64,000 bases of DNA, taken from Desulfitobacterium dichloroeliminans LMG P-21439. Lineage in GTDB: Bacteria > Bacillota > Desulfitobacteriia > Desulfitobacteriales > Desulfitobacteriaceae. Below, in pieces: positions 27,406 to 54,060 of the stretch. The number at the start of each line of letters is the position of its first letter. Position 1 is the first letter of the stretch. The notes under the pieces are model-generated. The model saw only the letters and a list, made by a program, of their open reading frames with translations, was not told the DNA's origin and ran no database searches. The DNA is taken from contig NC_019903.1 of the NCBI RefSeq assembly GCF_000243135.2, positions 1,712,001 through 1,776,000 of the forward strand, in the 5' to 3' direction. A program made the position numbers and the translations under genes.

Positions 27406-27481
27406 GGCCCATTGGTCAAGCGGCCTAAGACACCGCCCTTTCACGGCGGTAACACGGGTTCGAATCCCGTATGGGTCACCA
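27406..27481 (+). tRNA. tRNA-Glu (TTC)
   Basis: Complete cloverleaf, acceptor GGCCCAT/ATGGGTC, anticodon loop CTTTCAC, encoded CCA. First tRNA of the cluster. Confidence 0.97.
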
Positions 27482-27487
27482 AAATTA

Positions 27488-27563
<76 letters not shown>

Positions 27564-27569
27564 AAATAC

Positions 27570-27645
27570 GGCCCCGTGGTGTAGTGGTTAACATGCCTGC
27601 CTGTCACGCAGGAGATCGTCGGTTCAAGTCCGATCGGGGTCGCCA
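27570..27645 (+). tRNA. tRNA-Asp (GTC)
   Basis: Acceptor GGCCCCG/CGGGGTC, anticodon loop CTGTCAC, discriminator G, encoded CCA. Confidence 0.97.
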
Positions 27646-27674
27646 TTTTAATTTAATAGCGCGAAACACATAGT

Positions 27675-27758
27675 GGGTAGGTGGCCGAGTGGTTAAAGGC
27701 GGCAGACTGTAAATCTGTTCCGAAAGGTACGGTGGTTCGAATCCATCCCTGCCCACCA
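27675..27758 (+). tRNA. tRNA-Tyr (GTA)
   Basis: Acceptor GGGTAGG/CCTGCCC, anticodon loop CTGTAAA, long variable arm typical of bacterial tRNA-Tyr, encoded CCA. Confidence 0.95.
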
Positions 27759-27770
27759 CTAAAAAAACGT

Positions 27771-27845
<75 letters not shown>

Positions 27846-27884
27846 AAGGTTTTAAGTCAACGGAAGTTGATTTAATAGAAGCGT

Positions 27885-27959
27885 AGGGATGTCGCCAAGC
27901 GGTAAGGCACCAGACTTTGACTCTGGCATTCGTAGGTTCGAATCCTGCCATCCCTGCCA
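27885..27959 (+). tRNA. tRNA-Gln (TTG)
   Basis: Acceptor AGGGATG/CATCCCT, anticodon loop CTTTGAC, discriminator G, encoded CCA. Confidence 0.95.
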
Positions 27960-27963
27960 TTAT

Positions 27964-28039
27964 GAGCCATTAGCTCAGTCGGTAGAGCACCTGACTTTTA
28001 ATCAGGGTGTCCCGCGTTCGAGTCGCGGATGGCTCACCA
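27964..28039 (+). tRNA. tRNA-Lys (TTT)
   Basis: Acceptor GAGCCAT/ATGGCTC, anticodon loop CTTTTAA, encoded CCA. Confidence 0.97.
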
Positions 28040-28061
28040 TTTTCTAACAAGGCAATGAGAT

Positions 28062-28136
28062 GCGGGTGTAACTCAGTGGTAGAGTGTCACCTTGCCAAGG
28101 TGAAAGTCGCGAGTTCGAATCTCGTCACCCGCTCCA
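28062..28136 (+). tRNA. tRNA-Gly (GCC)
   Basis: Acceptor GCGGGTG/CACCCGC, anticodon loop TTGCCAA, encoded CCA. Confidence 0.97.
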
Positions 28137-28143
28137 AAACAAT

Positions 28144-28220
<77 letters not shown>

Positions 28221-28248
28221 TTTTAAATTGTATTAAACAATCCCTTAC

Positions 28249-28324
<76 letters not shown>

Positions 28325-28332
28325 TAAACAAT

Positions 28333-28417
28333 GCGGGAGTGGCGGAACTGGCAGACGCGCACGTTTGAGGGGCGTGTGGGTAACTCCATACGGGTTCAAG
28401 TCCCGTCTTCCGCACCA
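28333..28417 (+). tRNA. tRNA-Leu (GAG)
   Basis: Acceptor GCGGGAG with CTTCCGC (one G-U), anticodon loop TTGAGGG, long variable arm, encoded CCA. Confidence 0.94.
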
Positions 28418-28431
28418 TAAGTAAATATTGC

Positions 28432-28522
28432 GGAGAAGTACTCAAGTGGCTGAAGAGGACGGTTTGCTAAACCGTTAGAGTGGGTAACTGCTGCGAGGGT
28501 TCGAATCCCTCCTTCTCCGCCA
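28432..28522 (+). tRNA. tRNA-Ser (GCT)
   Basis: Acceptor GGAGAAG/CTTCTCC, anticodon GCT in TTGCTAA, long variable arm, encoded CCA. Last well-formed tRNA before a hairpin. Confidence 0.95.
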
Positions 28523-28540
28523 TCAATTTAGGTGAATATA

Positions 28541-28573
28541 GATGCCATGCGGTCAAACCCGCATGGCATCTGC
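28541..28573 (+). terminator. Hairpin after tRNA-Ser
   Basis: GATGCCATGCGG (28541-28552) and CCGCATGGCATC (28559-28570), perfect 12-bp arms, followed by TGCCTTTT. It would end the main tRNA transcript or aid its processing. Confidence 0.75.
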
Positions 28574-28646
28574 CTTTTCGGGGGTTTTTACCCTCGTTTT
28601 TTTGTCCCTCAGTTTCATAGATGACATCGAGCCATTTTGACATACT

Positions 28647-28662
28647 GGAGGGATTCGAACCC
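28647..28662 (-). other. Inverted tRNA T-arm fragment
   Basis: The minus strand reads GGGTTCGAATCCCTCC, identical to the T-arm of the tRNA-Ser gene at 28497-28512, but no acceptor or anticodon arm is attached. It looks like a relic of a recombination or an attachment-site fragment. Confidence 0.6.
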
Positions 28663-28682
28663 ACGTTTGGATACTGATATAT

Positions 28683-28758
28683 GGTCGTATAGCTCAGCTG
28701 GGAGAGCGCTTGAATGGCATTCAAGCGGTCAGCGGTTCGATCCCGCTTATCTCCACCA
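28683..28758 (+). tRNA. tRNA-Ala (GGC) with disrupted acceptor stem (possible pseudogene)
   Basis: From the D arm on it is a normal tRNA-Ala: AGCTCAGCTGGGAGAGC, anticodon GGC in ATGGCAT, T arm, acceptor 3' strand TATCTCC, A, CCA. But the 5' acceptor strand reads GGTCGTA, leaving positions 3-70 (T/T) and 4-69 (C/C) unpaired. The G3-U70 pair that AlaRS recognises is therefore lost. The 5' end seems to have been replaced at a junction near position 28690, next to the inverted T-arm fragment. It could be non-functional. Confidence 0.75.
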
Positions 28759-28767
28759 AAAGACGAT

Positions 28768-28800
28768 AAACCACAAGGCCAAATGACCTTGTGGTTTTTT
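28768..28800 (+). terminator. Terminator after tRNA-Ala
   Basis: AAACCACAAGG (28768-28778) and CCTTGTGGTTT (28787-28797), perfect 11-bp arms, then TTT. Confidence 0.9.
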
Positions 28801-29137
28801 CATATCCTACCATAGTGAGATCGGACACTTGATAAAACAGGAATTAAGAGTTAAAAAGTCCTGTGTAAAGACATGGTTCAATAGGGTAACTTATTGAATC
28901 GTATCTTTGCCGATATGCAAAAAGTGATAAGAGAAGCATTGTTGTCATGGCAATACTTCTCTGCATTTTACATAGATCTGTCGTCTTAATTTTGCTGCAA
29001 TGCATCAAGGTAATCAATAATGAACTGATCGAAATCCAATTCAAAACCGGAATTGTGATGCCAATATATTGTGAAATAGTGAACATGATGAAAATAAGAT
29101 TTGTATGTATTCTATTCTACTTTCGCTGAATTGAATA
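28801..29137. other. Gene-free stretch between tRNA cluster and defence island
   Basis: No convincing gene: the only frame (28947-29129) lacks a ribosome site. It is AT-rich and holds one hairpin, GAGAAG (28931-28936) with CTTCTC (28956-28961) plus an inner ATTG/CAAT pairing. It marks the change from core chromosome to accessory DNA. Confidence 0.6.
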
Positions 29138-29166
29138 TTGTAATCGCAGAATTATTACGATATAAT
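29138..29166 (+). promoter_or_regulatory. Promoter of the defence island with overlapping inverted repeat
   Basis: TTGTAA (29138-29143), 17-base spacer, perfect TATAAT (29161-29166). GTAAT (29140-29144) and ATTAC (29154-29158) form an inverted repeat across the spacer, a plausible operator for the XRE protein encoded next. Confidence 0.6.
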
Positions 29167-29201
29167 TATGGAAAGATAAGCCTGACAGCGAGGTGATTGT
29201 T

Positions 29202-29426
29202 TTGTCTGTGAGCTACAAAAAACTTTGGAAGCTCTTAATTGATCGCGAAATGAAAAAGAAAGACCTTTGTTCTAAAGCTGGCATAAGTCACGCGTCAATG
29301 GCCAAACTTGGAAAAAACGAAAATGTGACAACGGATGTACTTGTTCGGATCTGTACTGCTTTAAGCTGTGACATTAGTGATATTATGGAGATCGTAAACG
29401 ATTCAAATACGTCCGATAAAAAATAA
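29202..29426 (+). CDS. Small XRE-family regulator, first gene of the defence island
   Basis: 74 residues from TTG 29202, 6 bases after GAGGTG; the product then begins MSVSYKKLWKLLID, as related Firmicute regulators do. It is a Cro/CI helix-turn-helix (KKKDLCSKAGISHASMAKLGK) followed by the common tail LSCDISDIMEIV. As the first gene before a methylase and endonuclease it may act as a controller (C) protein timing the restriction system, or autoregulate through the inverted repeat in its promoter. The role is inference. Confidence 0.85.
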   Translation: MSVSYKKLWKLLIDREMKKKDLCSKAGISHASMAKLGKNENVTTDVLVRICTALSCDISDIMEIVNDSNTSDKK

Positions 29427-29452
29427 CCACAAAAGAAAGGGGGCTGTATACA

Positions 29453-31363
29453 GTGCTAAATTCATTACGCAACAAAGCTGAACAGCACCAATCGAGTGTC
29501 CCCGCACGTCCTTTACTTAAATGGGCGGGCGGCAAGACCCAAATGCTCAATGAAATCTTACCTAAAATACCGACTCCGTATGGTCGATATATAGAGCCGT
29601 TCATTGGTGGAGGAGCGCTCTTCTTTGCTCTTAATCCTTCTGATGGTATTATAGCAGATAGCAACCCCGAATTAATTAATATGTACAGGCAAGTAGCAGA
29701 GAATGTGGATGATGTTATTACATACCTTCAAACTTATAGTAACACAGAAGAGATGTTTTACGCTGTCAGATCACTGGACTGGCATGAACTTTCATTATCA
29801 GAAGCCGCAGCGAGGACAATCTATCTTAATAAAACATGCTTCAATGGTTTATACCGAGTAAATAAAAAGGGGCAGTTTAATGCGCCTTTTGGACGATATA
29901 AGAACCCAAAAATTTGTGATATTGAAGCTTTGTATGCAGCATCTGCTGTTTTGCAAAGAGCTACAATTGTGTGTGCTGATTATCTTCAGATTTTAAATGA
30001 TTATGCACAGCCGGGCGACTTTGTGTTTCTTGACCCGCCTTATCTTCCTGTGTCAGAGTACTCGGATTTCAAGCGATACACAAAGGAGCAATTCTATGAG
30101 GAAGATCACGTAGAACTTGCAAATGAGGTACAGCGGCTTCATGAGTTAGGCTGCTATGTAATTCTTACAAATTCCAACCACCCATTAGTGCATGAACTAT
30201 ATAGTACCTTTAATATTGATGTTGTGCAAACCAAGCGATATATCTCATGCAATGGTAACAGTCGTAAAGGTGAAGATGTCATCATTACAATTCCTCCGAA
30301 AAGGAGTATTTCTTTATCAATTGTACCTGCACCTTTACCTGCACAGGTTGATAAATATCCGTCTACTCGCTATATGGGATCTAAGAGTAAATTACTATTA
30401 CAGATATGGGATATTGCCTCCCAATTCAAATTTGATAGCGTTGTTGACCTATTTGCGGGATCTGGTATTGTTGGATACATGTTTAAAGCTCAAGGCAAAA
30501 CAGTTATTAGCAATGATTACATGGCAATGTCTGCAACTTATGCAAAAGCCATGATTGAGAACAATTCGGTTATCCTTCCACGGAATGAAGCGCAAAAACT
30601 TCTGATAGAATCACAAGCGTCTGATCATTTCGTTTACACTACTTTTGCCGGATTATATTTCTCTGATCATGATAACGAAGTTATTGACACGTTACGTGCA
30701 AATATAGCAGCTATCCGAGACCCCTATAAACGTGCAATTGCTATGTCTGCATTAATCCGTGCGTGTATTAAGAAGCGCGCTCGAGGCATTTTTACTTACA
30801 CTGGGGAACGCTATGACGATGGAAGAAAAGATCTTAAAAAATCGTTTGAAGAGCAGTTCATGGATGCAGTAACTGCTGTGAATAGTTCTGTTTTTAATAA
30901 TGGGAAAGTTAACAAAGCAAAAAACAGTGATGCCATGCAGTTGCGAATTGAAACGCCGGACATGGTATACATTGATCCCCCATATTATTCCCCATACTCT
31001 GATAATGAGTATGTACGCCGTTACCATTTTGTTGAGGGCCTCGCTCGAAATTGGGAAGGCGTTGAGATACAGCAACATACGCAAACAAAAAAGTTTAAGT
31101 CGTATCCTACACCCTTCTCCACGAGGAAAGGCGCTGCTGATGCCTTTGATCTACTGTTCAAAAAGTATGCAAGTAGTATAATCATCGTTTCCTATTCGTC
31201 AAACAGTTTGCCAACACTTGATGAGATGGTTTCCATTCTCTCAAAGCACAAGGAACACGTTGAAGTTATTCCGGTGGACTACCGGTACTCTTTCGGTAAT
31301 CAGGGTAACAAAGTAGGAAACAACAAAAACCAAGTCCAAGAATACCTTTTTGTGGGATATTAA
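29453..31363 (+). CDS. Two-domain D12-class DNA adenine methyltransferase
   Basis: 636 residues from GTG 29453, 9 bases after AAGGGGG. It is a fusion of two N6-adenine methylase domains. The first (residues ~20-285) has WAGGKTQ, EPFIGGGAL and catalytic DPPY in FLDPPYLP near residue 192. The second (~300-636) has RYMGSKSK, DLFAGSGIVG and DPPY in YIDPPYYS near 506. Two different adenine methylases are what a restriction system with an asymmetric site needs, one per strand, as in FokI. It protects the host from the AlwI-like enzyme encoded 12 bases downstream. Confidence 0.92.
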   Translation: MLNSLRNKAEQHQSSVPARPLLKWAGGKTQMLNEILPKIPTPYGRYIEPFIGGGALFFALNPSDGIIADSNPELINMYRQVAENVDDVITYLQTYSNTEEMFYAVRSLDWHELSLSEAAARTIYLNKTCFNGLYRVNKKGQFNAPFGRYKNPKICDIEALYAASAVLQRATIVCADYLQILNDYAQPGDFVFLDPPYLPVSEYSDFKRYTKEQFYEEDHVELANEVQRLHELGCYVILTNSNHPLVHELYSTFNIDVVQTKRYISCNGNSRKGEDVIITIPPKRSISLSIVPAPLPAQVDKYPSTRYMGSKSKLLLQIWDIASQFKFDSVVDLFAGSGIVGYMFKAQGKTVISNDYMAMSATYAKAMIENNSVILPRNEAQKLLIESQASDHFVYTTFAGLYFSDHDNEVIDTLRANIAAIRDPYKRAIAMSALIRACIKKRARGIFTYTGERYDDGRKDLKKSFEEQFMDAVTAVNSSVFNNGKVNKAKNSDAMQLRIETPDMVYIDPPYYSPYSDNEYVRRYHFVEGLARNWEGVEIQQHTQTKKFKSYPTPFSTRKGAADAFDLLFKKYASSIIIVSYSSNSLPTLDEMVSILSKHKEHVEVIPVDYRYSFGNQGNKVGNNKNQVQEYLFVGY

Positions 31364-31375
31364 GGAGGTGCAGAT

Positions 31376-33088
31376 ATGACACTTTGGTATATAGGTAACA
31401 CATCCGTCAGAAGTGCATTCCGCCTACGTGACGGTTTAGTTGCGCTTTCTACATCTTACCTACAAGGCAACATGCGTGGTCAAGATGGTGACCGCGCTTT
31501 TCGTCAATTGCTAGGGCAGCATGGCATTGTTTCGCTTGGAACAGATGAAACAAACAGCGTAGGACGGAAATGGCGATCAGCTCTTGGCAAGTTGGGATTT
31601 CTGTACCCGGAGATTCCGAGTTCTGCTACAATTCGTCAGGAAGACGTTGGTGCCATGGATACCATCACTCCCAATGGATGGCGACTGATACGCTCGGAAA
31701 CCGTGCCTGCCATGCAAGAGTGTTTTTTGCGTGCTCTAGCTGCTCAATATATAGAAATCCAAAATACCGATGGGCAATCTACATGGTTTTCACCGCTCCG
31801 GCACACATTGGCAGTTCTTCTCGAAGTGGAACGCCAAACTGGTGTGGCTGCTGTTAGCTTTATTGAGATGGCTCTTCATGTTCAGACTACCAGTAGCGCA
31901 GATAACATTGTGAACGTAGCTGAACGCATAATCGTGTTAAGAAATGAACGCAACGCCGCTGAATCGAAACGTCGTTTCGATTCGGCCAAATACGAAGAGG
32001 CGGGTATTGCTTTCGGTCTAAAAGCATCAACCTTCCGTGACTATGCTGACGCCAATTTCAGATACTTGAAAGCAACCGGTCTTGTCCAAAATAGAGGACG
32101 CGGTATTGCTTTAGTACCAGAAAAACGTCTGTTTTCAGAGTTGATGGCAAGAGATACATCTGCTCCGGCAACTGAACTTGATAGGTATACTACGCTGTGT
32201 AATGGCGCGGTGCTTCCTACAGACACACAGGATGCGGCGTTGGACGTTCTACACGATCTACTTGCACAGTTATCACAGATGGGTATTCCGTTTGTGCTTG
32301 GTGATCGGCCAGTTAATACGCCGGCTGACATCGCCATTATCCGGCACGAAGTTGAAGATATTATTTTTAAGCAAAAAGAAGAAATTTACGCAAGCGAGCA
32401 AGCTGGTCAATGGGAAGAAATTGCTACATACATTGATCTCATTGCTTCGCGTAGAGATCGTCGCCGTATTGATGAGGAAACCGAGATCATTATTCCTCGA
32501 AGCGAGACTCCAGCATATCTAGAGTGGACTTTATGGCGCGCATTCTTGGCTATTGACAGTTTGGAGAACAAGCCATATGAAGCAAGGCGTTTTAGGATTG
32601 ATCAGGACTTTTTACCGGTGGGTACCGCACCTGGCAATGGCCCAGACTTAATTATGGAGTTTCGTGATTTCGTTATTGTTATCGAAGTTACTTTGACCGA
32701 GAGCTCTAGACAGGAGGCTGCCGAAGGAGAACCCGTCCGTCGTCATGTGGCTGATCTTATGAACCAGTATGCCGAAGCTAATGGGAAGCCCGTGTATGGC
32801 TTGTTTATTGCCAACAATATAGATTCCAACACCGCAGAAACATTTAGAATTGGTGCGTGGTATTCACGAAGCGATGAGAGAATGCAACTGCATATTATCC
32901 CCATAACTATTTCTCAATTTAATATGTTTTTTAAGGCGTTGTTTACTACAAACAATGTAGCACCAGAAGCAGTTATTAATTTAATGAATGACTGTGAGCA
33001 ATACCGATCAGACTGTGAGGCTCCGGAATGGAAAGTTATGATCAGTCAGACTGTTGAACGGACAGTTAATGAAATGGTTGCACAATAA
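31376..33088 (+). CDS. AlwI-family type IIS restriction endonuclease
   Basis: 570 residues; AAGGAGGTG precedes the ATG. The N-terminus (WYIGNTSVRSAFRLRDGLVAL) and the nuclease core (GPDLIMEFRDFVIVIEVTLTESSRQ, then GEPVRRHV) match the AlwI/MlyI/PleI/BstNBI family, where PD...E-V-T stands for the PD-(D/E)xK motif at about residues 421-438. Family members recognise short asymmetric sequences such as GGATC or GAGTC and cut to one side; which site this one reads cannot be told. The gene is intact and follows its methylase directly. Confidence 0.88.
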   Translation: MTLWYIGNTSVRSAFRLRDGLVALSTSYLQGNMRGQDGDRAFRQLLGQHGIVSLGTDETNSVGRKWRSALGKLGFLYPEIPSSATIRQEDVGAMDTITPNGWRLIRSETVPAMQECFLRALAAQYIEIQNTDGQSTWFSPLRHTLAVLLEVERQTGVAAVSFIEMALHVQTTSSADNIVNVAERIIVLRNERNAAESKRRFDSAKYEEAGIAFGLKASTFRDYADANFRYLKATGLVQNRGRGIALVPEKRLFSELMARDTSAPATELDRYTTLCNGAVLPTDTQDAALDVLHDLLAQLSQMGIPFVLGDRPVNTPADIAIIRHEVEDIIFKQKEEIYASEQAGQWEEIATYIDLIASRRDRRRIDEETEIIIPRSETPAYLEWTLWRAFLAIDSLENKPYEARRFRIDQDFLPVGTAPGNGPDLIMEFRDFVIVIEVTLTESSRQEAAEGEPVRRHVADLMNQYAEANGKPVYGLFIANNIDSNTAETFRIGAWYSRSDERMQLHIIPITISQFNMFFKALFTTNNVAPEAVINLMNDCEQYRSDCEAPEWKVMISQTVERTVNEMVAQ

Positions 33089-33119
33089 CGATATTTAAAA
33101 TATCAGGGGAGGCCGCTGA

Positions 33120-33803
33120 ATGAATCGAGAATTAGAAGGTATATGGGAACATATGCGAGATCTTGGATTAGCCGCTTTGGCACATGCAAATCGGCATGCT
33201 GCGTACCATGATCCTGAAAATTCACGATGGTCAGAATTATCAATTTTACAAGCCGCACACGCAGCAGAAATAATTATCAAAGCAAGAATAGCACAGGAAC
33301 ACCCACTACTTATTTTCGAGGAATTTCCAAAGCTACCTAAAGATGAAGGTATTCCACTCACAATACAGAGTTTATTCGAAAAAGGAAAAACCGCTCAGTG
33401 GAGTGACTTGCCTACAAGACTTTGGGCTACAACAGGAATAAAAATTCCGAACCAAAGAAGTTTTGAAGATTTTGGTAAACTAAGAAATGGAATACAACAT
33501 TTTTCACCAATACCAGGTAATATAGATGCTTCAAAGACTACACTTAAGTTCGTTTTTGAAGTAATAGATCCCTTTATAAATGATTGTTGGGGTTTGTTTG
33601 CTATTGATTATGACGAAGACTATGATTCTTACGAGAATTTTCCAAATACATTAATCAGAATGGAAATACCATTTTTAGTTTCACCAGAAGCAGTAAAGTA
33701 TTATGAGTTTTGGAAAGATGATTTCGCAAATACAGATATAAAATATAAGAATGATTTACTTGCATATATAAATAGGCACTATAAACAAATACCAACACCG
33801 TAG
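33120..33803 (+). CDS. HEPN-like protein in the defence island
   Basis: 227 residues, preceded by GGGGAGG. Mostly helical, with an R-x4-H motif (RNGIQH, residues 122-127) of the kind that forms the RNase centre of HEPN proteins, and an upstream helix AAHAAEIIIKARIAQ. The base composition is more AT-rich than the flanking genes. It lies 31 bases after the endonuclease and 45 before the helicase, so it is in the same transcript. RNase activity is an inference from the motif; it could instead be a non-catalytic antitoxin-like partner. Confidence 0.65.
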   Translation: MNRELEGIWEHMRDLGLAALAHANRHAAYHDPENSRWSELSILQAAHAAEIIIKARIAQEHPLLIFEEFPKLPKDEGIPLTIQSLFEKGKTAQWSDLPTRLWATTGIKIPNQRSFEDFGKLRNGIQHFSPIPGNIDASKTTLKFVFEVIDPFINDCWGLFAIDYDEDYDSYENFPNTLIRMEIPFLVSPEAVKYYEFWKDDFANTDIKYKNDLLAYINRHYKQIPTP

Positions 33804-33848
33804 TGTGGATATAACAATGGTAAATAGAACATCCGAGGGGGATAAAGT

Positions 33849-35264
33849 ATGCATGGGATTACACCAAAGGGAAAACAGGAAGAGGTCATGGCTCTGCCCG
33901 CAAAAGGCCACATCGTTGTGCTTGGTACTGCCGGTAGCGGCAAGACTACCATTGCTTTGCTTCGCTCCCATCACCTTGCCAACATACCCGAAAACGGCAG
34001 GGTGTTACTCGTTACATTCAACGGCGCGTTAGTCGAATATATGCGTGGTATAAGTAAATCTCGGTCAGCAAAACTTGTTGTCGAGAACTATCATAAGTTT
34101 GCCAGGGGCTATTTGAACAGTAGAGGAAAGATGCCTCGTTGGAACGGAATTCTGAGCCCGGACGAAAAGGCTTATTACATAGAGCAAGCCGTAGAAGAAT
34201 TAAAAAAGGAGCATCCTGCCGAATCCACGTTAAGGCGCTCTAAGGAGTTCTTTATTGACGAGATAACCTTCATCGAGAAATTCGGGGTTGCCGATCTTGC
34301 CGCATACAATGAAGCAGAACGTATTGGTCGTGCAGCCGCTAATATTAAGCGAGAAAACCGCAAATGGATTTTCGCGGTATATAAGAAATACATAGAACTG
34401 CGCGAGGCAGCTGGTCGGAAATATGACTGGGATGATTTGGCTTTTTATGTCTACAACGAACTGCAGGATGACGAAAACGAACGCAGATATACCCACATCA
34501 TCGTGGACGAGGGGCAGGATTTCTCCCCAATGATGATTAAGTCGTTGGTAGACGCTGTGGCCGACGGCGGGTCGTTTACCTTCTTCGGGGATGTAGCGCA
34601 GCAGATTTACGGCAGCCGTCTATCTTGGCGTGACTCTGGAATTAACGCTGATAAGGTCTGGCGGTTCGATGTGAATTACCGCAACCCCGCCACCATTACG
34701 GCTTTTGCTAAAGACATAACCGAAAGCGAATACTGGCGGCAAGACGGCGATATGGTCGAAGCTACTGCCCAGATTGCCGAAGGACCTAAGCCCATACTCG
34801 TGAAATTCTCAAATAAGCCGCGAGAGATGGCTTGGGTAGTTGAGCGAGCTATATCCACAGGAAAAACCTCGTCTACGGTGATTGTTTGCAGGACCAGGGC
34901 TGACATTGATTCTTTTTTGCGAGTGTTGAAGAACAAAGGATGCGACGCAACGGAAATCGATAAAGACACTCCCGGATATGCCCATATAAAGACGGTTTAT
35001 CTTACGACCTTCCACGCCGCAAAAGGACTGGAGTTCGACAACGTGTTTGTCCCATTTTTGACGGACGATAAACTCCCAGACCCTGATACAGTTGCGAATG
35101 CCGTATCTGAAGAGGACGCATATATTGATGAGATAAAGCTGCTTTACGTTGCGACAACCCGCTCGAAATACGGGCTATACATGACATATAGCGGCACGTT
35201 GTCTCCGCTGTTCCCTGAGGATTCAGATAGCTGTGATTTTCACGATGAGGAGGAAGTGGAATGA
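33849..35264 (+). CDS. Superfamily I (UvrD/Rep-like) helicase, compact form
   Basis: 471 residues. Walker A GTAGSGKTT at residues 26-34, motif II HIIVDEGQD near 215-223, motif III GDVAQQIYG, motif IV-V region (NYRNPATI, TTFHAAKGLEFDNVFVPF) and motif VI ATTRSKYGLYM are all present. It is short for UvrD and lacks large accessory subdomains, like helicases found in phage-defence operons. Its stop overlaps the start of the DarT-like gene (ATGA), so the two are translated together. Likely to act on DNA ends or forks in concert with that toxin (inference). Confidence 0.88.
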   Translation: MHGITPKGKQEEVMALPAKGHIVVLGTAGSGKTTIALLRSHHLANIPENGRVLLVTFNGALVEYMRGISKSRSAKLVVENYHKFARGYLNSRGKMPRWNGILSPDEKAYYIEQAVEELKKEHPAESTLRRSKEFFIDEITFIEKFGVADLAAYNEAERIGRAAANIKRENRKWIFAVYKKYIELREAAGRKYDWDDLAFYVYNELQDDENERRYTHIIVDEGQDFSPMMIKSLVDAVADGGSFTFFGDVAQQIYGSRLSWRDSGINADKVWRFDVNYRNPATITAFAKDITESEYWRQDGDMVEATAQIAEGPKPILVKFSNKPREMAWVVERAISTGKTSSTVIVCRTRADIDSFLRVLKNKGCDATEIDKDTPGYAHIKTVYLTTFHAAKGLEFDNVFVPFLTDDKLPDPDTVANAVSEEDAYIDEIKLLYVATTRSKYGLYMTYSGTLSPLFPEDSDSCDFHDEEEVE

Positions 35265-35941
35265 GCGCATATGAAATTTTGACGGCTCGTGGTGTGACCC
35301 GCTTATGCCACTTTACGAAGTTCCAGAGCCTGACGCACATTATTCCTTCGGCGGATGGCATTCTGGCGAGCAGCTCGATACGCCAAGATACGAAAAACGT
35401 CACCGACACGGCTCGGTACGACGGCGAATTGGATTATGTGTGCTGCTCTGTTCAGTACCCAAACTCGTGGTTCTTGAAAAAGGCTATGCAGAACAACACC
35501 GATAAGATCTTCAAAGATTGGGTTGTTCTATATGTCGATTTGAGCATACTAAAATATAAAAGCGCGAAATTCTGCCCTTGCAATGCGAGCAAATCATATG
35601 GAACCCATATAGATGATAGGATGGAAAATATCGATTCAATCTTTGCAACTTCTATCCCTACGTTTGCATACCCGAGGTCTCCACAAATGCTCGCTTCCTG
35701 CCCGACAGACGGGCAAGCGGAAATCTTGATTAGGGACAGTATTCCACGAGAGTACATTATCGGCATGGCCGTTGGGAATGAGGAGGTTGCGAAGCGGATT
35801 TATGGGATGCTGAAAATGTACGGCATGGAACAAATACCGCTTTATATTGCTCCAGATGTAGTGATGCCAAATTGGAGCAGTATGATTAAGAATGGTCGTC
35901 GACCAATCGAGACCCAGTGCGGCTGGTCAGAGGAGGAGTAA
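35261..35941 (+). CDS. DarT-like DNA ADP-ribosyltransferase (toxin)
   Basis: 226 residues. The N-terminus (RLCHFTKFQSLTHIIPSADGILAS) matches the NAD-binding start of DarT/DUF4433 enzymes (typically yHiT..nl..Il..G), and DGQAEILI near residue 149-156 matches the catalytic glutamate segment (QAEfLv). DarT attaches ADP-ribose to thymidine or guanosine in single-stranded DNA, blocking replication, and serves in phage abortive infection. It overlaps the helicase stop and lies 3 bases before a glycohydrolase that could act as its antidote. Residues of the R-H-Y-E triad need alignment to confirm. Confidence 0.8.
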   Translation: MSAYEILTARGVTRLCHFTKFQSLTHIIPSADGILASSSIRQDTKNVTDTARYDGELDYVCCSVQYPNSWFLKKAMQNNTDKIFKDWVVLYVDLSILKYKSAKFCPCNASKSYGTHIDDRMENIDSIFATSIPTFAYPRSPQMLASCPTDGQAEILIRDSIPREYIIGMAVGNEEVAKRIYGMLKMYGMEQIPLYIAPDVVMPNWSSMIKNGRRPIETQCGWSEEE

Positions 35942-35944
35942 GTT

Positions 35945-37594
35945 ATGTCTACAGCGATACCAACCCATATAGAAAAATGCAAAGGAGCAATGCTGGCCAC
36001 CGCCATTGGTGATGCTTTAGGTTGGCCTAATGAGCTACGCTCAAAAAACAAAATAAAGAACTCCAAAGTCAACGACTATTTTGTTGAGTGGACTCGTCGC
36101 AATAACAAGCCATGCTATCATGACGAGAAGATTCTCCCAGGTGAATATAGCGACGACACCCAGATGACCTTATCCGTTGCAAGAAGCATTATCACGGGCA
36201 ACTGGGAGAAATTTTTCGCTGAAAAAGAACTCCCTTTCTGGCTTAATTACGAGCGCGGTGGCGGCGGGGCCTTATTAAAGGCGGCAAAATCCTGCAAAGA
36301 AGGTTCGGTGCTGTGGCAGTCCAGCTATTCAAAGGACTACTTTAACGCGGGTGGCAACGGTGCTGTCATGCGTATTTTACCTCACGTCATAGCATTGGCA
36401 CAAACGTCTGATATCAAGGGTGTATTACTTGATGTTATAAAAGACGCCATTATCACCCATGGTCATCCGAGGGCAATTTTGGGCACCACCTGCTACGCAT
36501 ATGCGCTGGACTATCTTCTGAGGAAAGATGCTGTATTAGAATACGGCGAACTTGTGACCGCAGTGATAGAAGGCAAGGAAATCTGGGGGGCATGCCTTAG
36601 TTACGATACCTTTGGAAACTGGCTTAATATTGCAAGCCAGCATCGCGACTATGAGTACGCAACGGAATGGGAGAATACTCGCTTCCGTATGGTGAAGCAA
36701 CTCGAGTTCATCAAGGATTCACTCAAGAAGGGCTTAATGATGGACGATACAAAGGTATTGACTCAGTTAGAATGCTTCTCAACTGCAAACGGCGCTGGTG
36801 ATGTAGCTATCTTGGCCGCAATTTATCTGGCTTCAAGGTATGCAACCAATCCTACGCTCGGTATAAAGGTTCCCGCCTTTTCATTCGGAACAGATACGGA
36901 TACCATCGCCTCCATTACTGGCGGTTTATTGGGTATGCTTTGCGGCATTAATTGGATTCCGATCGAGTGGAAAGTGGTCCAGGACTACGATTGCCTTATC
37001 CGGCTTACCGACCTCTTACTCGCTAATAACAGTAAACATACTGAAATAGCCGATGTGACAGAGGCAAAGACTCATGAATCCGATTGGGTAAATACCGCAA
37101 TTGGTCGTATGCGTAAAATCGGCACGGCAACTGTTCCGAACGGTAAATACGCTATTGTAACCATTACAAAATGGAAATCCGCGCTGGGACAGACCTTATA
37201 CACGAAAGATATGCAAAAGCTCGATAATCAGCCTAAACGCACAGATAGTCGGTTGCCGTTGCCTCAGCAGCCTTCATTGTATGATATGGATGCACAGCCT
37301 CGCTCTGAATCTAAGCCGCCGGTTCAGGTTCAGATAACTCTGCCTGTGCAAGAGATTACCTCCCATAATGTTGTTCCGCAAAAAAAGCAGCGACAGCTTG
37401 TCTTAGACGAAAATGGCGTAAATGCATTGCTCGATAATTCCAAGTTCAAGAAGAACATTACTATTGGTAAGGTACTGAAAATAGTTCAAACCTTGATTGA
37501 GGGTAACGATGCGAGTGAGGCTATTGCGAAACAATTTGAGGTCGAACAGGTGATGGTTGATCTCATTAAAACCTACGTGAAAAGTTCTTTCTGA
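35945..37594 (+). CDS. ADP-ribosylglycohydrolase with HTH-like tail (probable antitoxin)
   Basis: 549 residues. Residues ~10-370 form an ADP-ribosylglycohydrolase (DraG/ARH) domain: GAMLATAIGDALGWPNE, metal-binding SDDTQ near 68-72, the HGHPRAILGTTCYAYAL helix and FGTDTDTIASITGGLLG near 315. A ~110-residue low-complexity Pro/Gln linker follows, then a tail (about 490-549) resembling a small helix-turn-helix (GKVLKIVQTLIEGNDASEAIAKQFEV). It would remove ADP-ribose placed by the DarT-like enzyme, doing the job that a DarG macrodomain does in known systems; the pairing is inferred from coupling and chemistry. Confidence 0.85.
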   Translation: MSTAIPTHIEKCKGAMLATAIGDALGWPNELRSKNKIKNSKVNDYFVEWTRRNNKPCYHDEKILPGEYSDDTQMTLSVARSIITGNWEKFFAEKELPFWLNYERGGGGALLKAAKSCKEGSVLWQSSYSKDYFNAGGNGAVMRILPHVIALAQTSDIKGVLLDVIKDAIITHGHPRAILGTTCYAYALDYLLRKDAVLEYGELVTAVIEGKEIWGACLSYDTFGNWLNIASQHRDYEYATEWENTRFRMVKQLEFIKDSLKKGLMMDDTKVLTQLECFSTANGAGDVAILAAIYLASRYATNPTLGIKVPAFSFGTDTDTIASITGGLLGMLCGINWIPIEWKVVQDYDCLIRLTDLLLANNSKHTEIADVTEAKTHESDWVNTAIGRMRKIGTATVPNGKYAIVTITKWKSALGQTLYTKDMQKLDNQPKRTDSRLPLPQQPSLYDMDAQPRSESKPPVQVQITLPVQEITSHNVVPQKKQRQLVLDENGVNALLDNSKFKKNITIGKVLKIVQTLIEGNDASEAIAKQFEVEQVMVDLIKTYVKSSF

Positions 37595-37665
37595 AAAGAT
37601 AGATGAAGCAAAGCAGAGATATAAATTTATGATACATTACGGAATATAACTGTTTCCTGAAAATC

Positions 37666-37704
37666 AGCGGGGAGTATTTTCTAACGAAGATACCCCCGCT
37701 TTTT
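37666..37704 (+). terminator. Terminator of the defence island
   Basis: AGCGGGGAGTAT (37666-37677) pairs with ATACCCCCGCT (37690-37700) with one bulged A, then TTTT. It closes the seven-gene unit 29202-37594. Confidence 0.85.
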
Positions 37705-37750
37705 ATGCCCTTTTTAGGGCTCAAACTCAAAAAGAATGGAGGAAACCAAA

Positions 37751-38254
37751 ATGGCAAACGAAACAATGCGTATATTCTTACCGTTGACGATCTTCACCTA
37801 TCCTCAGTATAACTGCTCGGAGGATGAGCGAGAGGATATCTCACCCAGGGAGGCGGTGGCGTATGAGGATCAAATTCTCGCTGCTATTACAAAGGAAAAC
37901 CGACACTTTGAAAATGACCGGGGTCTCGCCGAGTACATCCATGACGAAGCTCTAAAGGGAAAGGTGTATAGCCTGATCCCATCTGTGGAGGTTGTCGACG
38001 GCGAGCTGTGGGGCGTTATGACCGCAGGGCTTAAAGAACCCCTCTCTGGCGAAGAAACAGCCGAGCTGTTAAACTTTGTGACTGGTCAGGCGAGTGACGG
38101 TTATGGCGAAGGATTTGAACAGAGGCCCATTAAAACTCCTGACGGTGAGATTTACGTCAGCTTCTGGAATCATGAAAACTATTCTCTCAAGCTTGAACAG
38201 GATATGAAAAACAATTCGCCTGACCTCGGATACGGAGGCCCGGTGATGCAATGA
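37751..38254 (+). CDS. Conjugative-element hypothetical protein
   Basis: 167 residues from ATG 37751 after GGAGGAAA; an in-frame ATG at 37736 lies before that site. Acidic, with no membrane span and no motif I recognise (ends in GGPVMQ). Its stop overlaps a 15-codon reading frame. Confidence 0.6.
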   Translation: MANETMRIFLPLTIFTYPQYNCSEDEREDISPREAVAYEDQILAAITKENRHFENDRGLAEYIHDEALKGKVYSLIPSVEVVDGELWGVMTAGLKEPLSGEETAELLNFVTGQASDGYGEGFEQRPIKTPDGEIYVSFWNHENYSLKLEQDMKNNSPDLGYGGPVMQ

Positions 38255-38298
38255 ATGAAAAAGTGAACGGACAAATAGCGCTCTTTGGTTTCTTCTGA
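38251..38298 (+). CDS. Candidate micropeptide with sliding-clamp-like motif
   Basis: ATGA overlap with the previous stop starts a 15-residue frame, MNEKVNGQIALFGFF. QIALF resembles the beta-clamp-binding pentapeptide (QLxLF). The frame runs into the terminator hairpin at 38277. Too short for firm support; it may be chance. Confidence 0.3.
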   Translation: MNEKVNGQIALFGFF

Positions 38299-38317
38299 AG
38301 CTGGAGGGCGCTTTTTT
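38277..38317 (+). terminator. Terminator
   Basis: AGCGCTC (38277-38283) pairs with GAGGGCGCT (38304-38312), with a small bulge, then six T. Confidence 0.7.
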
Positions 38318-38361
38318 ATTACAGCAGATTGCTGTGAGCTTTACAACTAAATAAAAGAACG

Positions 38362-38399
38362 AAAAGGCGCTGTCTTACGAAAAAGGCAGCGCCTTTTTT
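38362..38399 (+). terminator. Terminator
   Basis: AAAAGGCGCTG (38362-38372) and CAGCGCCTTTT (38387-38397), perfect arms, T-rich end. Second hairpin in a row between two small element genes. Confidence 0.85.
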
Positions 38400-38424
38400 G
38401 TTTTTCCGAGAAAGGAGCTGAATC

Positions 38425-38628
38425 ATGAATCATGATGTAACACCAGAAGAAAAAACAGTCACGGGAGTATGCGATCCGCCGATTAAGTATTCCTTACCTC
38501 TGCCCAAAGATCTCGATCGTTGTACAGGGTGTCCTTATCCCCGAGTCGGCTTCATCTGCTGGAGTCCGGACGGCTCCTGCATGAAAACCGAGGTTGATAA
38601 ATTCAGCCGTCCAAGCAAAGGCAGGTGA
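38425..38628 (+). CDS. Small cysteine-containing protein of the element
   Basis: 67 residues with GAAAGGAG before the ATG. Contains CTGCPYPRVGFICW and later C, a possible zinc site. Its stop overlaps the start of the adenine methylase, suggesting coupled translation. No family recognised. Confidence 0.6.
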   Translation: MNHDVTPEEKTVTGVCDPPIKYSLPLPKDLDRCTGCPYPRVGFICWSPDGSCMKTEVDKFSRPSKGR

Positions 38629-39566
38629 TGAAAATGAACAGCATCATCAGCTGGGTGGGCGGCAAAAAAGCACTGCGGGATTTGATCTACCAGCGGATGC
38701 CAAAAGAATTCGGACGGTACATAGAAGTCTTCGGCGGCGGGGGCTGGGTGCTGTTCGGACGGACGCCCGACGTCGCCATGGAGGTCTACAACGACTTTAA
38801 TTCTGACCTTGCGAATCTTTTCCGTTGCGTCCGCGACCGACCCTTCGCTCTACTCAAGGAGCTGAATTTCCTTCCGCTGAACGGGCGGGATGAATTCATT
38901 GTCTTGAAAAGGTATCTGGAGAAGGAGGAATTTACAAACGAGTACCTGCGGGAGGAACTGGAGATTGCTGAGCTATATCTTCCGGAACCGCAGTTTGAAG
39001 AAATCAAGCTAATCCTTTTGGAAAACGCGCAGATGAACGATGTGAAGCGCGCTGCCGCTTTTTACAGGCAGATCCGCTTAAGCTACGGAAGCGGCTGTAC
39101 CAGCTATGGCTGTCAGCCCTTCGACATCCGGAAAACTTTTCATCTTCTCTGGCAGGGCAGCCGCAGACTGAAGGATACGGTCATTGAGAACAAGGACTTT
39201 GAAGAACTGATCAGGCAGTATGACCGTGAAAATGCCTTCATCTACTGCGACCCTCCCTACTATCAGACGGAAGGTCACTACGCGGTGGAATTTAAAAAGG
39301 AAGATCATGCGAGGCTCAGGGATACCCTGGTGGCCTGCCAGGGAAAATGGCTGGTCAGCTACAACGACTGCGAATTCATCCGTGAGCTGTACAAGGACTT
39401 TAATATTGAAGCGGTCAGCCGCATCAACAACCTTGCTCAGCGCTATGACAACGGCTGCGAATATGCTGAAGTTCTTATCTCCAATTACGATACCGGTGAA
39501 CGACTGAGGGACATGCCGACCCAGTTGGGACTATTCGACCTCGCCTGTTTTAACGGCATGGAATAA
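38628..39566 (+). CDS. Orphan Dam-type DNA adenine methyltransferase
   Basis: 312 residues (ATG 38628; ATG 38634 is also possible, AGGTG just upstream). D12 class: WVGGKKALRDLIY at the start, EVFGGGGWVLF, and catalytic DPPY in YCDPPYYQTEGHY near residue 206. No endonuclease partner is adjacent, so it likely protects the element DNA from host restriction. Near the C-terminus MPTQLGLFDLA contains QLGLF, a good sliding-clamp-binding motif, which would bring the enzyme to newly made DNA; that reading is inference. Confidence 0.9.
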   Translation: MKMNSIISWVGGKKALRDLIYQRMPKEFGRYIEVFGGGGWVLFGRTPDVAMEVYNDFNSDLANLFRCVRDRPFALLKELNFLPLNGRDEFIVLKRYLEKEEFTNEYLREELEIAELYLPEPQFEEIKLILLENAQMNDVKRAAAFYRQIRLSYGSGCTSYGCQPFDIRKTFHLLWQGSRRLKDTVIENKDFEELIRQYDRENAFIYCDPPYYQTEGHYAVEFKKEDHARLRDTLVACQGKWLVSYNDCEFIRELYKDFNIEAVSRINNLAQRYDNGCEYAEVLISNYDTGERLRDMPTQLGLFDLACFNGME

Positions 39567-39597
39567 CTAATCCAAATTTATTAGGAGGGTCAATATT

Positions 39598-40032
39598 ATG
39601 AAACTGATTGAAATGCGTACATTCGTAGACAAACAAGGCAGCATCATCCTGCCGGGAGAGGCGCTTGGCGCAGCGGGATTGAAGCCCGGCGATGAGTTGT
39701 GTGCCACTCTCGCTGTGGGGCAGGAAGAAACGAAAAACCTATGCCCGCAGCTTGTCATTACACCACAGGGCGTGGGAATTGCGGTGCAGCTGACCGGCTG
39801 GCGGGAGGACGATGAGGAAGGTGATCTGACTCTGCCTAACGATCTTCTGGAAGCGGCGGAGATTCCGGCGGACAGCGATCTGGAGATCGTCTGCACGGCC
39901 GGAGCTATTGTCATTATGGAATCGGATGTTCTGGACAACCTGCCTGACGAGCTCCGTGAGCTCTTCGGCGAGCTTGGCATCGACCCCGGCACAGTCCGGG
40001 AGGTTATGAGAAAGGACGGATATTTTATATGA
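39598..40032 (+). CDS. AbrB/SpoVT-like DNA-binding protein 1
   Basis: 144 residues, AGGAGG before the ATG. An AbrB-like swapped-hairpin segment at the N-terminus (TFVDKQGSIILPGEALGAAGLKPGDEL) and a second similar one near residue 80 (GDLTLPNDLLEAAEIPADSDLEIV). Followed by a coupled second AbrB gene (overlap ATGA at 40029). Probably a regulator of the element. Confidence 0.75.
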   Translation: MKLIEMRTFVDKQGSIILPGEALGAAGLKPGDELCATLAVGQEETKNLCPQLVITPQGVGIAVQLTGWREDDEEGDLTLPNDLLEAAEIPADSDLEIVCTAGAIVIMESDVLDNLPDELRELFGELGIDPGTVREVMRKDGYFI

Positions 40033-40322
40033 AAGCTAAACCCATTTATAAAATCGTGGACGGCAAAGGCCGTGTTCTTATTCCCAAGGAACTCCGCACA
40101 GCTTCCGGTATGGATTACGGCGATATTGTGAGGCTGAGCATTCATCAGGGCGTTGTCACAGCAAAGAAGGTGGATCTCATTGAGGTAGGTGATCAGTCGC
40201 CTGAGGCGGTGGAAGCCTTTGTCCATGCTGCTATCCGTGAGATGCCGGAGGACACCCAAATCGCCATAGCCGCCCGGCTGCTGGAGCTGATCGAGCAGAG
40301 AAAGAGGCAGAGCCATGAGTGA
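40029..40322 (+). CDS. AbrB/SpoVT-like DNA-binding protein 2
   Basis: 97 residues; the start overlaps the previous stop. N-terminal AbrB motif (KIVDGKGRVLIPKELRTASGMDYGDIVRL), helical C-terminus. May form a hetero-oligomer with the preceding protein. It also overlaps the next gene by 8 bases. Confidence 0.82.
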   Translation: MKAKPIYKIVDGKGRVLIPKELRTASGMDYGDIVRLSIHQGVVTAKKVDLIEVGDQSPEAVEAFVHAAIREMPEDTQIAIAARLLELIEQRKRQSHE

Positions 40323-40902
40323 AAAAGTATTGTTTACTCAGGAGGACTGCCTGCTAACTGGATATGACATGTCCATTGACGGAAAGGTTATTGTACTTCA
40401 TCCGTCCTCATTGCCGGAGGAATTCCGGAATGCGAAGTACCAGATGTACTTCTGTACAGGAGGAAACGGCAGCAATCCGAATCCCATCGGCCGCTCCATC
40501 TTCACAGTATCCCTGGCGGAAGGCGAAAAACTCCGCTGGAACAGGAACGACATTCTTGGCATTCTAAAGCCAGAACTCCTTCCTGAATATGCACAGCTGC
40601 AGCTCTCGCAAATCCGTCCAAACGGTGCACTAGATCTGAAAAATAACGAGCCGCAGTACAGCGGCTATTGTTTTCTGCCGGACGGACGCTACACCTCCGG
40701 TGTAGGACTATGCAGCGCCAAGGAGGTTTGGGACTACATCGAGATGCAGAAGGACTACCAGCACAGGGTGATGATCTGCGACCGTGAAGATTTCTGTGTA
40801 TTTGAGATGATTGCGGGACAGATCGTCCATCCATTGCCGGAAACCATGGAAGCCTACCAGAAGGAACAACAGGAGCAAGGCGGAATGGATCTGAAGCTAT
40901 GA
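40315..40902 (+). CDS. Conjugative-element hypothetical protein (195 residues)
   Basis: Start overlaps the AbrB gene. A soluble, mixed alpha/beta protein with conserved-looking WNRNDILGILKPELLPEYAQ and RVMICDREDFCVFEM segments. Such proteins recur in clostridial conjugative elements; I cannot give a function. Confidence 0.6.
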   Translation: MSEKVLFTQEDCLLTGYDMSIDGKVIVLHPSSLPEEFRNAKYQMYFCTGGNGSNPNPIGRSIFTVSLAEGEKLRWNRNDILGILKPELLPEYAQLQLSQIRPNGALDLKNNEPQYSGYCFLPDGRYTSGVGLCSAKEVWDYIEMQKDYQHRVMICDREDFCVFEMIAGQIVHPLPETMEAYQKEQQEQGGMDLKL

Positions 40903-40917
40903 AACCAATTGAGACTT

Positions 40918-40949
40918 AAGGCCGGGGTCAGGTTGCTGATTCCGGCCTT
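40918..40949 (+). terminator. Hairpin, possible terminator
   Basis: AAGGCCGG (40918-40925) and CCGGCCTT (40942-40949) with an inner TCAG/CTGA pairing; the tail GTCATTG is not T-rich, so termination is uncertain. Confidence 0.5.
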
Positions 40950-40986
40950 GTCATTGTTAAAATCAAAAAGAAAGGACTGAAAACCC

Positions 40987-45594: not shown

Positions 45595-45630
45595 TACTCC
45601 GGCAGTCCTGCCGGGAAAGGAGGAAGTGTT

Positions 45631-46191
45631 ATGAACGGTATTCAGATTAAGAACAACCGCATCCTTTACTACGGCAATACAGCCGGCTATATCGAAAAGG
45701 ACAGGGCTATTGTAGACCCGATGTTTCAGAACGAGGAACTCCGGTCCTATCTCACAGAGAAAAAAGGACTGGAGCTGGAGTGGAGAAACGGCACCTTCGC
45801 GCGGATGGCAGAGGGAAAGATCGATCCGGAAGGCAACCTGCAGGTTCTGAAAAAATGCAGGGTCCATCAGCTCAAGCCCGATGTGGATGTAATGATGAAA
45901 TTCATCGGGTATGACGAACTGCTGGAGCACTTCGGAGAACCTGACCCTGACAACTACCGGGTGGTCTATGACGGCGAGGTGGAAACCAATAATCTGGAGG
46001 AACTCTTCGCCAAATTCAACCTTGACCATCCGCTCGGCTATGAGGGACACAGCCTTTCCATGTCGGACGTGGTGGAGCTGTATGATGATTCCGGCAGCTC
46101 CTTCCACTATGTTGACCGATTCGGATTTAAGGAAATCCCCTTTCAGCCACAGGAGCAGGAGCTGTACCAGGGACCGACGATGAGCCTGTAA
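45631..46191 (+). CDS. YodL-domain conjugative-element protein
   Basis: 186 residues, GGAGG before the ATG. The C-terminal part (DHPLGYEGHSLSMSDVVELYDD..SSFHYVDRFGFKEI) fits the YodL-like domain common in conjugative elements and their antirestriction or primase proteins. Function unknown. Confidence 0.72.
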   Translation: MNGIQIKNNRILYYGNTAGYIEKDRAIVDPMFQNEELRSYLTEKKGLELEWRNGTFARMAEGKIDPEGNLQVLKKCRVHQLKPDVDVMMKFIGYDELLEHFGEPDPDNYRVVYDGEVETNNLEELFAKFNLDHPLGYEGHSLSMSDVVELYDDSGSSFHYVDRFGFKEIPFQPQEQELYQGPTMSL

Positions 46192-46202
46192 CACTATCAG
46201 TC

Positions 46203-46224
46203 GCAGCCGGAAGGCTGTTTTTTT
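46203..46224 (+). terminator. Short terminator hairpin
   Basis: CAGCC (46204-46208), GGAA, GGCTG (46213-46217), then seven T. Confidence 0.75.
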
Positions 46225-46254
46225 AACCCACAAATATTTAAGGAGGAAACATCC

Positions 46255-46674
46255 ATGAGTAAAGCACAAGCTACCGCCAAAACTCCGCAGGAATCTGCGC
46301 AAGCCGCTACGGAGCAGCCTCTACCTATGAAGGTGGATGTGAAGATCGGCTCCATCCGTCCGGAAGGCAATGTCAAGGCTTACGCGTCCATCAACCTGAA
46401 TGACTGCTTCGCCATCCGCAACGTGAAGGTGGTAGACAGCTCCAAGGGGCTGTTTATTGCCATGCCCAGCTACAAGGCGGGAAACGGAGAGTACAAGGAC
46501 ATCTGCTTTCCGGTCACCAAGGAATTCCGGGAACAGCTGAACAATGCGGTCATCGACGCCTACCATCAGGCCTTCACCCAGAGTCAGAACCAAAACCAGC
46601 AAAAGACGGCGGATAAACCGTCTTTGGAACAGGCACCGGAGCAGAGCGCCGGTATGCAGATGGTGGGACTATAA
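46255..46674 (+). CDS. SpoVG-family protein
   Basis: 139 residues, AGGAGG before the ATG. SpoVG core (KVDVKIGSIRPEGNVKAYASINLNDCFAIRNVKVVDSSKGLFIAMPS) with Gln/Lys-rich ends. SpoVG-type proteins bind DNA or RNA and regulate expression; element-borne copies are common in clostridial conjugative elements. Confidence 0.85.
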   Translation: MSKAQATAKTPQESAQAATEQPLPMKVDVKIGSIRPEGNVKAYASINLNDCFAIRNVKVVDSSKGLFIAMPSYKAGNGEYKDICFPVTKEFREQLNNAVIDAYHQAFTQSQNQNQQKTADKPSLEQAPEQSAGMQMVGL

Positions 46675-46730
46675 GCCCCGCCATCTTTGTTACTCAACCA
46701 CTAAAACAAACATATTGGAGGTAAATCATA

Positions 46731-46994: not shown

Positions 46995-46995
46995 T

Positions 46996-47409: not shown

Positions 47410-47422
47410 GGAGGAACACTCT

Positions 47423-48268: not shown

Positions 48269-48269
48269 T

Positions 48270-51468: not shown

Positions 51469-51473
51469 CGGAG

Positions 51474-52346: not shown

Positions 52347-52359
52347 GGAGGTATGCCAA

Positions 52360-53383: not shown

Positions 53384-53477
53384 CGAAATTAAAATAATCG
53401 TAGACTTATGGAAAATTTTGTAGTATGGTGTGGTTGAAAAGACCAAACCAGCAACCTTTGAAAAGGGGGTAAAACCA

Positions 53478-54035: not shown

Positions 54036-54060
54036 TTTATTACAAACTTTATATAGAGCA

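Follow-up and report, generated by a model that had tools for sequence, protein, structure and literature searches.

Why would a mobile element carry a complete tRNA gene whose acceptor stem no longer pairs throughout? This question is raised by a tRNA-Ala(GGC) gene in a 64,000-nucleotide stretch (hereafter the window) of the closed 3.62-Mb genome of Desulfitobacterium dichloroeliminans LMG P-21439, where the gene is located 161 bp in from the left boundary of a putative integrative and conjugative element (ICE). Few landing sites of genomic islands are commoner than tRNA genes, a preference attributed to tyrosine integrases that restore the missing gene end. Here we argue for another origin: the window gene likely began as the replacement (‘rescue’) tRNA of a mobile element and has since been orphaned and fallen into decay. 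An original prediction, made from the letters of the window, had described a gene that was probably dead or a junction product; this interpretation is partly supported, and it overlooked both the ICE and the homology of the gene to a complete replacement tRNA in a related element. Coordinates below are those of the window unless marked chr, for chromosome.

ARAGORN called a tRNA-Ala(ggc) at exactly the following position, and the Rfam tRNA model matched it with 51.7 bits (E 3.4e-8; gathering score 29), compared with 63.5 bits for the native copy of the same genome.

28683..28758, + strand: degenerate tRNA-Ala(GGC), the candidate orphaned rescue tRNA (ARAGORN; Rfam; comparison with other tRNA copies)

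The acceptor strands read GGTCGTA (5′) and TATCTCC (3′), which leaves five of the seven pairs (1-72 G-C, 2-71 G-C, 5-68 G.T, 6-67 T-A and 7-66 A-T) and two mismatches, T.T at 3-70 in place of the G3.U70 identity pair and C.C at 4-69. The anticodon arm, the T-arm and the other arms are normal; the gene has an alanine anticodon, discriminator A73 and an encoded CCA, scores as a cloverleaf and retains an unaltered D-loop core (TAGCTCAGCTGGGAGAGCG). ARAGORN, Rfam and strand-by-strand pairing thus confirm the predicted pair of acceptor mismatches, including 3-70, in an otherwise normal tRNA. The window gene differs from the intact native gene at 5 of 76 positions (3, 4, 44, 47 and 68) and from an element-borne copy in genome G042 at 3 of 76 (3, 4 and 44). 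It is not a chance tRNA-like string, because BLAST aligned it with the native tRNA-Ala(GGC) at 93% identity over 86 bases (E about 1e-30). All nine other complete element-borne tRNA-Ala genes that we compared kept G3.U70, which was missing only from the window copy (the ARAGORN frame of the G132 tRNA-Ala starts one base early and, shifted by one base, reads GGGGATA/TATCTCC). To judge by these letters, the window gene is probably dead, or without alanine charging, after the loss of G3.U70. Two other measures were set aside: the bit score alone was rejected as proof of death, as a tRNA-Leu in the adjoining tRNA array scores 46.4, and RNA folding energy was uninformative as a discriminator (z −1.00 for the window copy, −0.97 for the native copy and −0.45 for the G042 copy).

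The cell has a sound gene elsewhere. A tRNA family search of the genome gave 70 places, and ARAGORN, run on the stretches around them, found two tRNA-Ala(TGC) genes and the second tRNA-Ala(GGC) for which the original prediction had called, a single intact copy with G3.U70 at chr 229726-229801; a normal tRNA therefore serves the GCC/GCU codons. The 15-base anticodon-arm string TTGAATGGCATTCAA occurs at only two genomic places, the native gene and the window copy. Both places are full-length, and no displaced fragment of tRNA-Ala(GGC) was found, fragments without the arm having been sought only via BLAST.

The element that best shows what the window gene may once have been is the ICE of G042. 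The window tRNA-Ala, the terminator behind it and a short motif form a cassette that matches the left end of this ICE, on contig C5, at 89.6% identity over 163 bp, so that the window too has a complete tRNA (here degenerate) and a terminator at an element's left end.

28768..28797, + strand: intrinsic terminator directly after the tRNA-Ala, common to the G042 ICE (terminator scan; alignment with G042)
28823..28833, + strand: 11-bp motif GGACACTTGAT (exact copies in the G042 ICE at the equivalent place)

The G042 ICE spans about 100 kb. Upstream of it is a 22-nt tRNA-Ala 5′ fragment whose flank aligns with an intact locus of genome G038 up to ...CAGCTGGGAG, and the right flank aligns from TGGGAGAGCGC... 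on; at the far end, a 3′ fragment begins at the D-loop (shared core TGGGAG) and is followed by the sequence that follows the gene in G038. Because both flanks match the intact G038 locus, the host tRNA-Ala(GGC) of G042 has been split in its D-loop. The element copy, complete with G3.U70, is the only whole tRNA-Ala(GGC) that we found in this 99%-complete genome of 20 contigs. The gene for a 558-aa serine integrase (Resolvase, Recombinase and zinc-ribbon domains) stops about 195 bp short of the 3′ fragment. As a separate observation, GGACACTTGAT follows the rescue tRNA in direct orientation at one end of the G042 ICE; at the other end it closely precedes the G042 integrase gene in inverted orientation, as it does the integrase gene of locus L164 (before the integrase start at L124 17901-17911 and L164 1306-1316). 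It is a possible binding site of a shared regulator, and it is not universal after the terminator: exact copies on the tRNA side occur only in G042 and the window.

A search of 82 genomes of the class (E<=1e-60) found relatives of the G042 integrase in 2, and one of 398 sampled genomes of the phylum (E<=1e-110) found them in 7 (G042 included in both counts); a further 23 viral-contig loci, 3 phage records and 1 plasmid encode relatives. We read 33 integrase loci, having excluded L220 and L227 as repeats of L124 and L164, as well as L217 and L219; several of the 33 form near-identical pairs, which lowers the number of independent cases. A tRNA or a tRNA piece was found at the integrase end of 20 of them. 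At eight loci, a tRNA 3′ fragment starting in the D-loop comes right after the integrase gene (6 Ala GGC, 1 Val GAC and 1 Asn GTT, the Val and Asn fragments of L225 and L218 being identified by eye from the sequence), and ten have a complete tRNA beside the integrase gene. The remaining pieces comprise a fragment in degenerate form at L222, the 3′ half of an Ala tRNA in antisense orientation at L231 and, at L216, a tRNA 3′ end on the edge of the record. L217, at 34% identity, was read and had no tRNA piece. In the integrase tree, the tRNA-linked loci are scattered over both main branches. A viral contig in the collection, L198, has at 3541-3715 a pair of complete tRNA-Ala(GGC) genes with 23 bp between them; behind them come a hairpin and a GAGGACGAACAC string that resembles those of the rescue cassettes.

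Six genomes (G042, G058, G132, G281, G294 and G443) combine a tRNA 5′ fragment ending in the D-loop with a complete tRNA of the same anticodon, the types being tRNA-Ala(GGC), tRNA-Ala(CGC) in G058 and tRNA-Val(GAC). The anatomy thus comprises a split gene, a complete same-anticodon tRNA and an integrase next to one end. Host halves in G443 (GATCTGT and ACAGATC) pair perfectly, and the tRNA-Val(GAC) of the element differs in sequence. In G058, the host 5′ half (GGGGATG) and the 3′ fragment (CAGGTCC) do not pair, and the fragment is identical to the 3′ part of the rescue tRNA; the integrase match in this genome contains one stop, as does that in G294. On contig C11 of G294 (about 17911-18137; L251), a complete tRNA-Ala is preceded by two tRNA-Ala 5′ fragments that both stop in the D-loop and are separated by 106 bp. 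This looks like stacked insertions, in which the second element would have cut the rescue tRNA of the first.

From this anatomy, we infer that a large serine integrase inserts the element in the D-loop of a host tRNA gene, with a crossover within about positions 17-22, and so splits the gene. The element carries a complete same-anticodon tRNA near one end, and this replacement, placed behind the old promoter and the 5′ fragment, would take over by read-through expression and would be needed by the cell. We are inclined to extend this reading, with somewhat less confidence than we place in the origin of the window gene, to a family of large serine integrases represented in at least six of the genomes sampled from the phylum and on many phage-like contigs: it would use tRNA D-loops as bacterial attachment sites (attB) and replace the destroyed host tRNA with a complete isoacceptor, so that host decoding becomes tied to the element in an addiction-like manner and rescue tRNAs can be targeted again (G294) or orphaned (window).

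In the window, the cassette would have come to lie inside an ICE that sits at a tRNA-Ser 3′ end and has other recombinases. Two features separate the tRNA-Ala from the array of tRNA genes upstream.

28523..28672, + strand: left end module of the outer ICE (similarity to the ends of relatives)
28579..28596, + strand: site resembling an intrinsic terminator, downstream of the tRNA array and upstream of the tRNA-Ala (terminator scan)

With the host tRNA-Ala(GGC) whole, the spare copy would have been redundant and would have lost its acceptor stem. This loss fits relaxed selection, because the window ICE has no such integrase, no host fragment is present, a terminator lies upstream and the gene is redundant. 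The stem may have decayed by point mutation or through a junction with the outer end module at about tRNA position 5; the letters make a junction as plausible as two point mutations, because the changes are adjacent and fall at the point where the similarity to the outer end module ends. The junction product of the original prediction is borne out only to this extent, that there is a junction at the 5′ end of the gene (about 28673-28686), at which the outer end module gives way to the tRNA cassette. A chimera with the 5′ half of another tRNA is indistinguishable from two mutations, because the 5′ half GGTCGTATAGCTCAGCTGG occurs in other tRNAs. We tried this exact 5′ half as a family signature and rejected it: it gave 25 stretches in genome contigs (22 in tRNA-Val, tRNA-Met or tRNA-Ile genes, one in a tRNA of unassigned type (L082), one truncated by the end of its contig (L091) and one outside any tRNA (L087)) and none in viral contigs. 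No tRNA-Ala was among these matches, which therefore give no indication that a tRNA-Ala family with T3/C4 is conserved.

Several observations weigh against a rescue-tRNA origin of the window gene. The window ICE has no integrase of the G042 family: the genome gave no match at E<=1e-60, and the tree places the two longer serine recombinases of the window ICE (551 and 543 aa) outside that family. No split 5′ fragment of a host tRNA-Ala lies upstream, where the outer end module is found, and the native gene is whole. The link to G042 rests on cassette homology of about 160 bp plus the homology of the conjugation genes. Of the 33 integrase loci, 13 lack any tRNA piece, 3 of these 13 ending at a contig edge. 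A consensus promoter scan gave no promoter-like site in 28400-28900, and it also gave none at the intact native tRNA-Ala and at G042; the lack of sites in the window says little, because the scan misses these two as well. Finally, a tRNA-Ala 3′ half followed by a terminator is the ordinary attachment site (attP) of many phages, and such an element could have been the origin.

That last point leads to the strongest competitor, which we nevertheless consider doubtful. The window gene could be a captured host tRNA-Ala, the former site of a tyrosine-integrase element (host 5′ half, element 3′ half and terminator) that was later engulfed by the present ICE. The 3′ part of tRNA-Ala(GGC) with T68 and a following terminator, as in a typical attP, is found on many viral contigs (47 stretches), and genome G055 has a tRNA-Ala 3′ part only, with the same kind of terminator. 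Similarity searches of phage and plasmid records with the left end returned no record covering 80% of the query, and the matches listed, from 20 of 347 and from 20 of 42 records, fall on the tRNA-Ala part. Taken together, however, tRNA, terminator and motif find their best match in the left end of an ICE that has a serine integrase as well as homologous conjugation genes. The window ICE lacks a Phage_integrase domain, and the sequence upstream of the tRNA-Ala is the outer end module rather than the flank of a host tRNA-Ala.

We think it quite unlikely that the gene is a working tRNA, still charged by alanyl-tRNA synthetase or with another amino acid. According to the accessible part of a review, selection in an E. 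coli tRNA-Ala knock-out yielded mutants with C-C, C-U or G-A at 3-70 that were substantially active (PMC9976931). A missing 3-70 pair is therefore no proof of death, and the original prediction, that the gene is probably dead for want of a pair required by the synthetase, was too strong in its premise and is likely right in its outcome. The intact anticodon arm, T-arm, discriminator A and CCA, and the presence of the 5′ half in normal tRNA-Val, tRNA-Met and tRNA-Ile genes, would also suit a working tRNA. Against this stand the two adjacent acceptor mismatches with the drop in Rfam score from the native copy, the upstream terminator with no promoter-like site, and the conservation of G3.U70 in every other element copy compared; T.T with a second mismatch is not among the active variants named in that part of the review (PMC9976931). 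Less likely still is that a dead tRNA is kept as a landing site that spares the host gene by receiving D-loop-targeting elements: the unchanged D-loop core and the apparent stacking in G294, with its second 5′ fragment as if a rescue tRNA had been targeted, are compatible with this, but the window copy has no insertion, and an intact D-loop is also expected after brief decay.

How, then, does a replaced tRNA compare with known systems? Islander-type islands likewise enter a tRNA or tmRNA gene and leave a displaced host fragment at the far end while the functional gene is restored, as described in the accessible part of the report (PMC4383910); the loci here differ from that description in having a serine integrase, a D-loop target and a complete extra tRNA. 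With the window tRNA-Ala as target, neither a displaced fragment nor a tyrosine integrase was found, and none of the 10 places in the genome with Phage_integrase (PF00589) lies within the ICE (chr 1740502-1802543). The nearest precedent that we found, judged from the available portion of the paper, is the ssrA islands of Dehalococcoides, which resemble the outer ICE of the window: the serine recombinase DsiB acts at the tmRNA gene, a 20-bp direct repeat derives from the 3′ end of that gene, and the integration module has a conserved tRNA-Gly-like pseudo-tRNA (PMC3146451). Their target, by contrast, is the T-loop of ssrA, and in that portion the pseudo-tRNA is not reported to replace a split tRNA (PMC3146451). 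In the open-access literature, the part that we could draw on with most subscription papers outside its scope, we recognised no description of D-loop splitting with a complete replacement tRNA, and the strategy is apparently undescribed for serine integrases. We regard D-loop-splitting serine integrases with replacement tRNAs as a variant form of tRNA-gene integration and as the main interest here, the window gene being by itself a minor fossil. If our reading is true, cells depend on an element for a tRNA, integrases with a widely conserved target become available, and stray tRNA genes and half-genes on mobile DNA are accounted for; an annotated tRNA that seems broken can be the fossil of a tRNA swap.

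The outer element that houses the cassette sits at the 3′ end of a tRNA-Ser(GCT) gene and breaks the first copy of a tRNA array, with 62.0 kb between its direct repeats.

28523..64000, + strand: window part of an ICE of about 62 kb that continues to chr 1802543 (repeats; synteny with the G042 and G045 ICEs)
28502..28522, + strand: left copy of a 21-bp direct repeat, the 3′ end of tRNA-Ser(GCT) (right copy chr 1802523-1802543)
28528..28548, + strand: left arm of a 21-bp terminal inverted repeat (right arm chr 1802397-1802417)
27406..28522, + strand: 12-gene tRNA array cut by the ICE (second copy chr 1804869-1805993, 99.7% over 1126 bp)
28681..37655, + strand: cargo segment of about 9 kb missing from the G045 ICE (comparison with the 95% identical G045 ICE)

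We call this element an ICE because of its gene synteny with the elements of G042, whose conjugation genes mostly share 50-83% amino-acid identity with it, and of G045, with 95% DNA identity over 9.1 kb. Its genes encode a type II/IV secretion ATPase, a HerA/TraG-like ATPase and three large serine recombinases, the last being neighbours near the right end, the middle one with a Recombinase domain only. Streptococcal ICEs likewise have a serine-integrase triplet, but, in the section of the paper available, they enter mutT, traG or hsdM with 2-8 bp repeats, unlike the 21 bp at a tRNA 3′ end here (PMC4701971). The duplicate region, with the Asn, Met and Gly tRNAs that come after the array and are likewise present twice, spans chr 1804869-1806237; the ICE splits the first copy.

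The 150-bp outer end module is 88% identical to contig C79 and 87% to contig C103 of G058, 78% to G045 and 73% to G002. It abuts a tRNA-Ala 3′ end on C79 and a tmRNA 3′ end on C103, as read from the sequence, and no tRNA-Ala comes after the module in any of these relatives. The module (28523-28672; chr 1802397-1802543) thus joins the 3′ ends of differing tRNA and tmRNA genes in relatives, and its interior has the 21-bp inverted repeats and inverted T-arm-like strings (GGATTCGAAC).

In G045, the gene next to the end module is a homologue of the window gene at 37736. Because G045 passes straight to this homologue, the window ICE has roughly 9 kb more, from 28681 to about 37655, a segment that starts with the tRNA-Ala on its left. 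The segment holds the tRNA-Ala and genes for a helix-turn-helix protein, a D12 methyltransferase, an AlwI-type endonuclease, a UvrD-like helicase, DarT and an ADP-ribosylglycohydrolase. By Pfam, the part at 29193-37594 resembles a defence island, with the D12 adenine methyltransferase and AlwI-type endonuclease, the helicase, and DarT with the ADP-ribosylglycohydrolase. Beyond it, a 1535-aa open reading frame (40987-45594) has long internal repeats, evident as several offset matches to its G045 homologue, and is conserved in related ICEs. On the other side of the array, a cyclic di-AMP riboswitch (23238-23372; 94.2 bits) lies just upstream of a 476-aa open reading frame on the minus strand, which by reading resembles a cell-wall peptidase.
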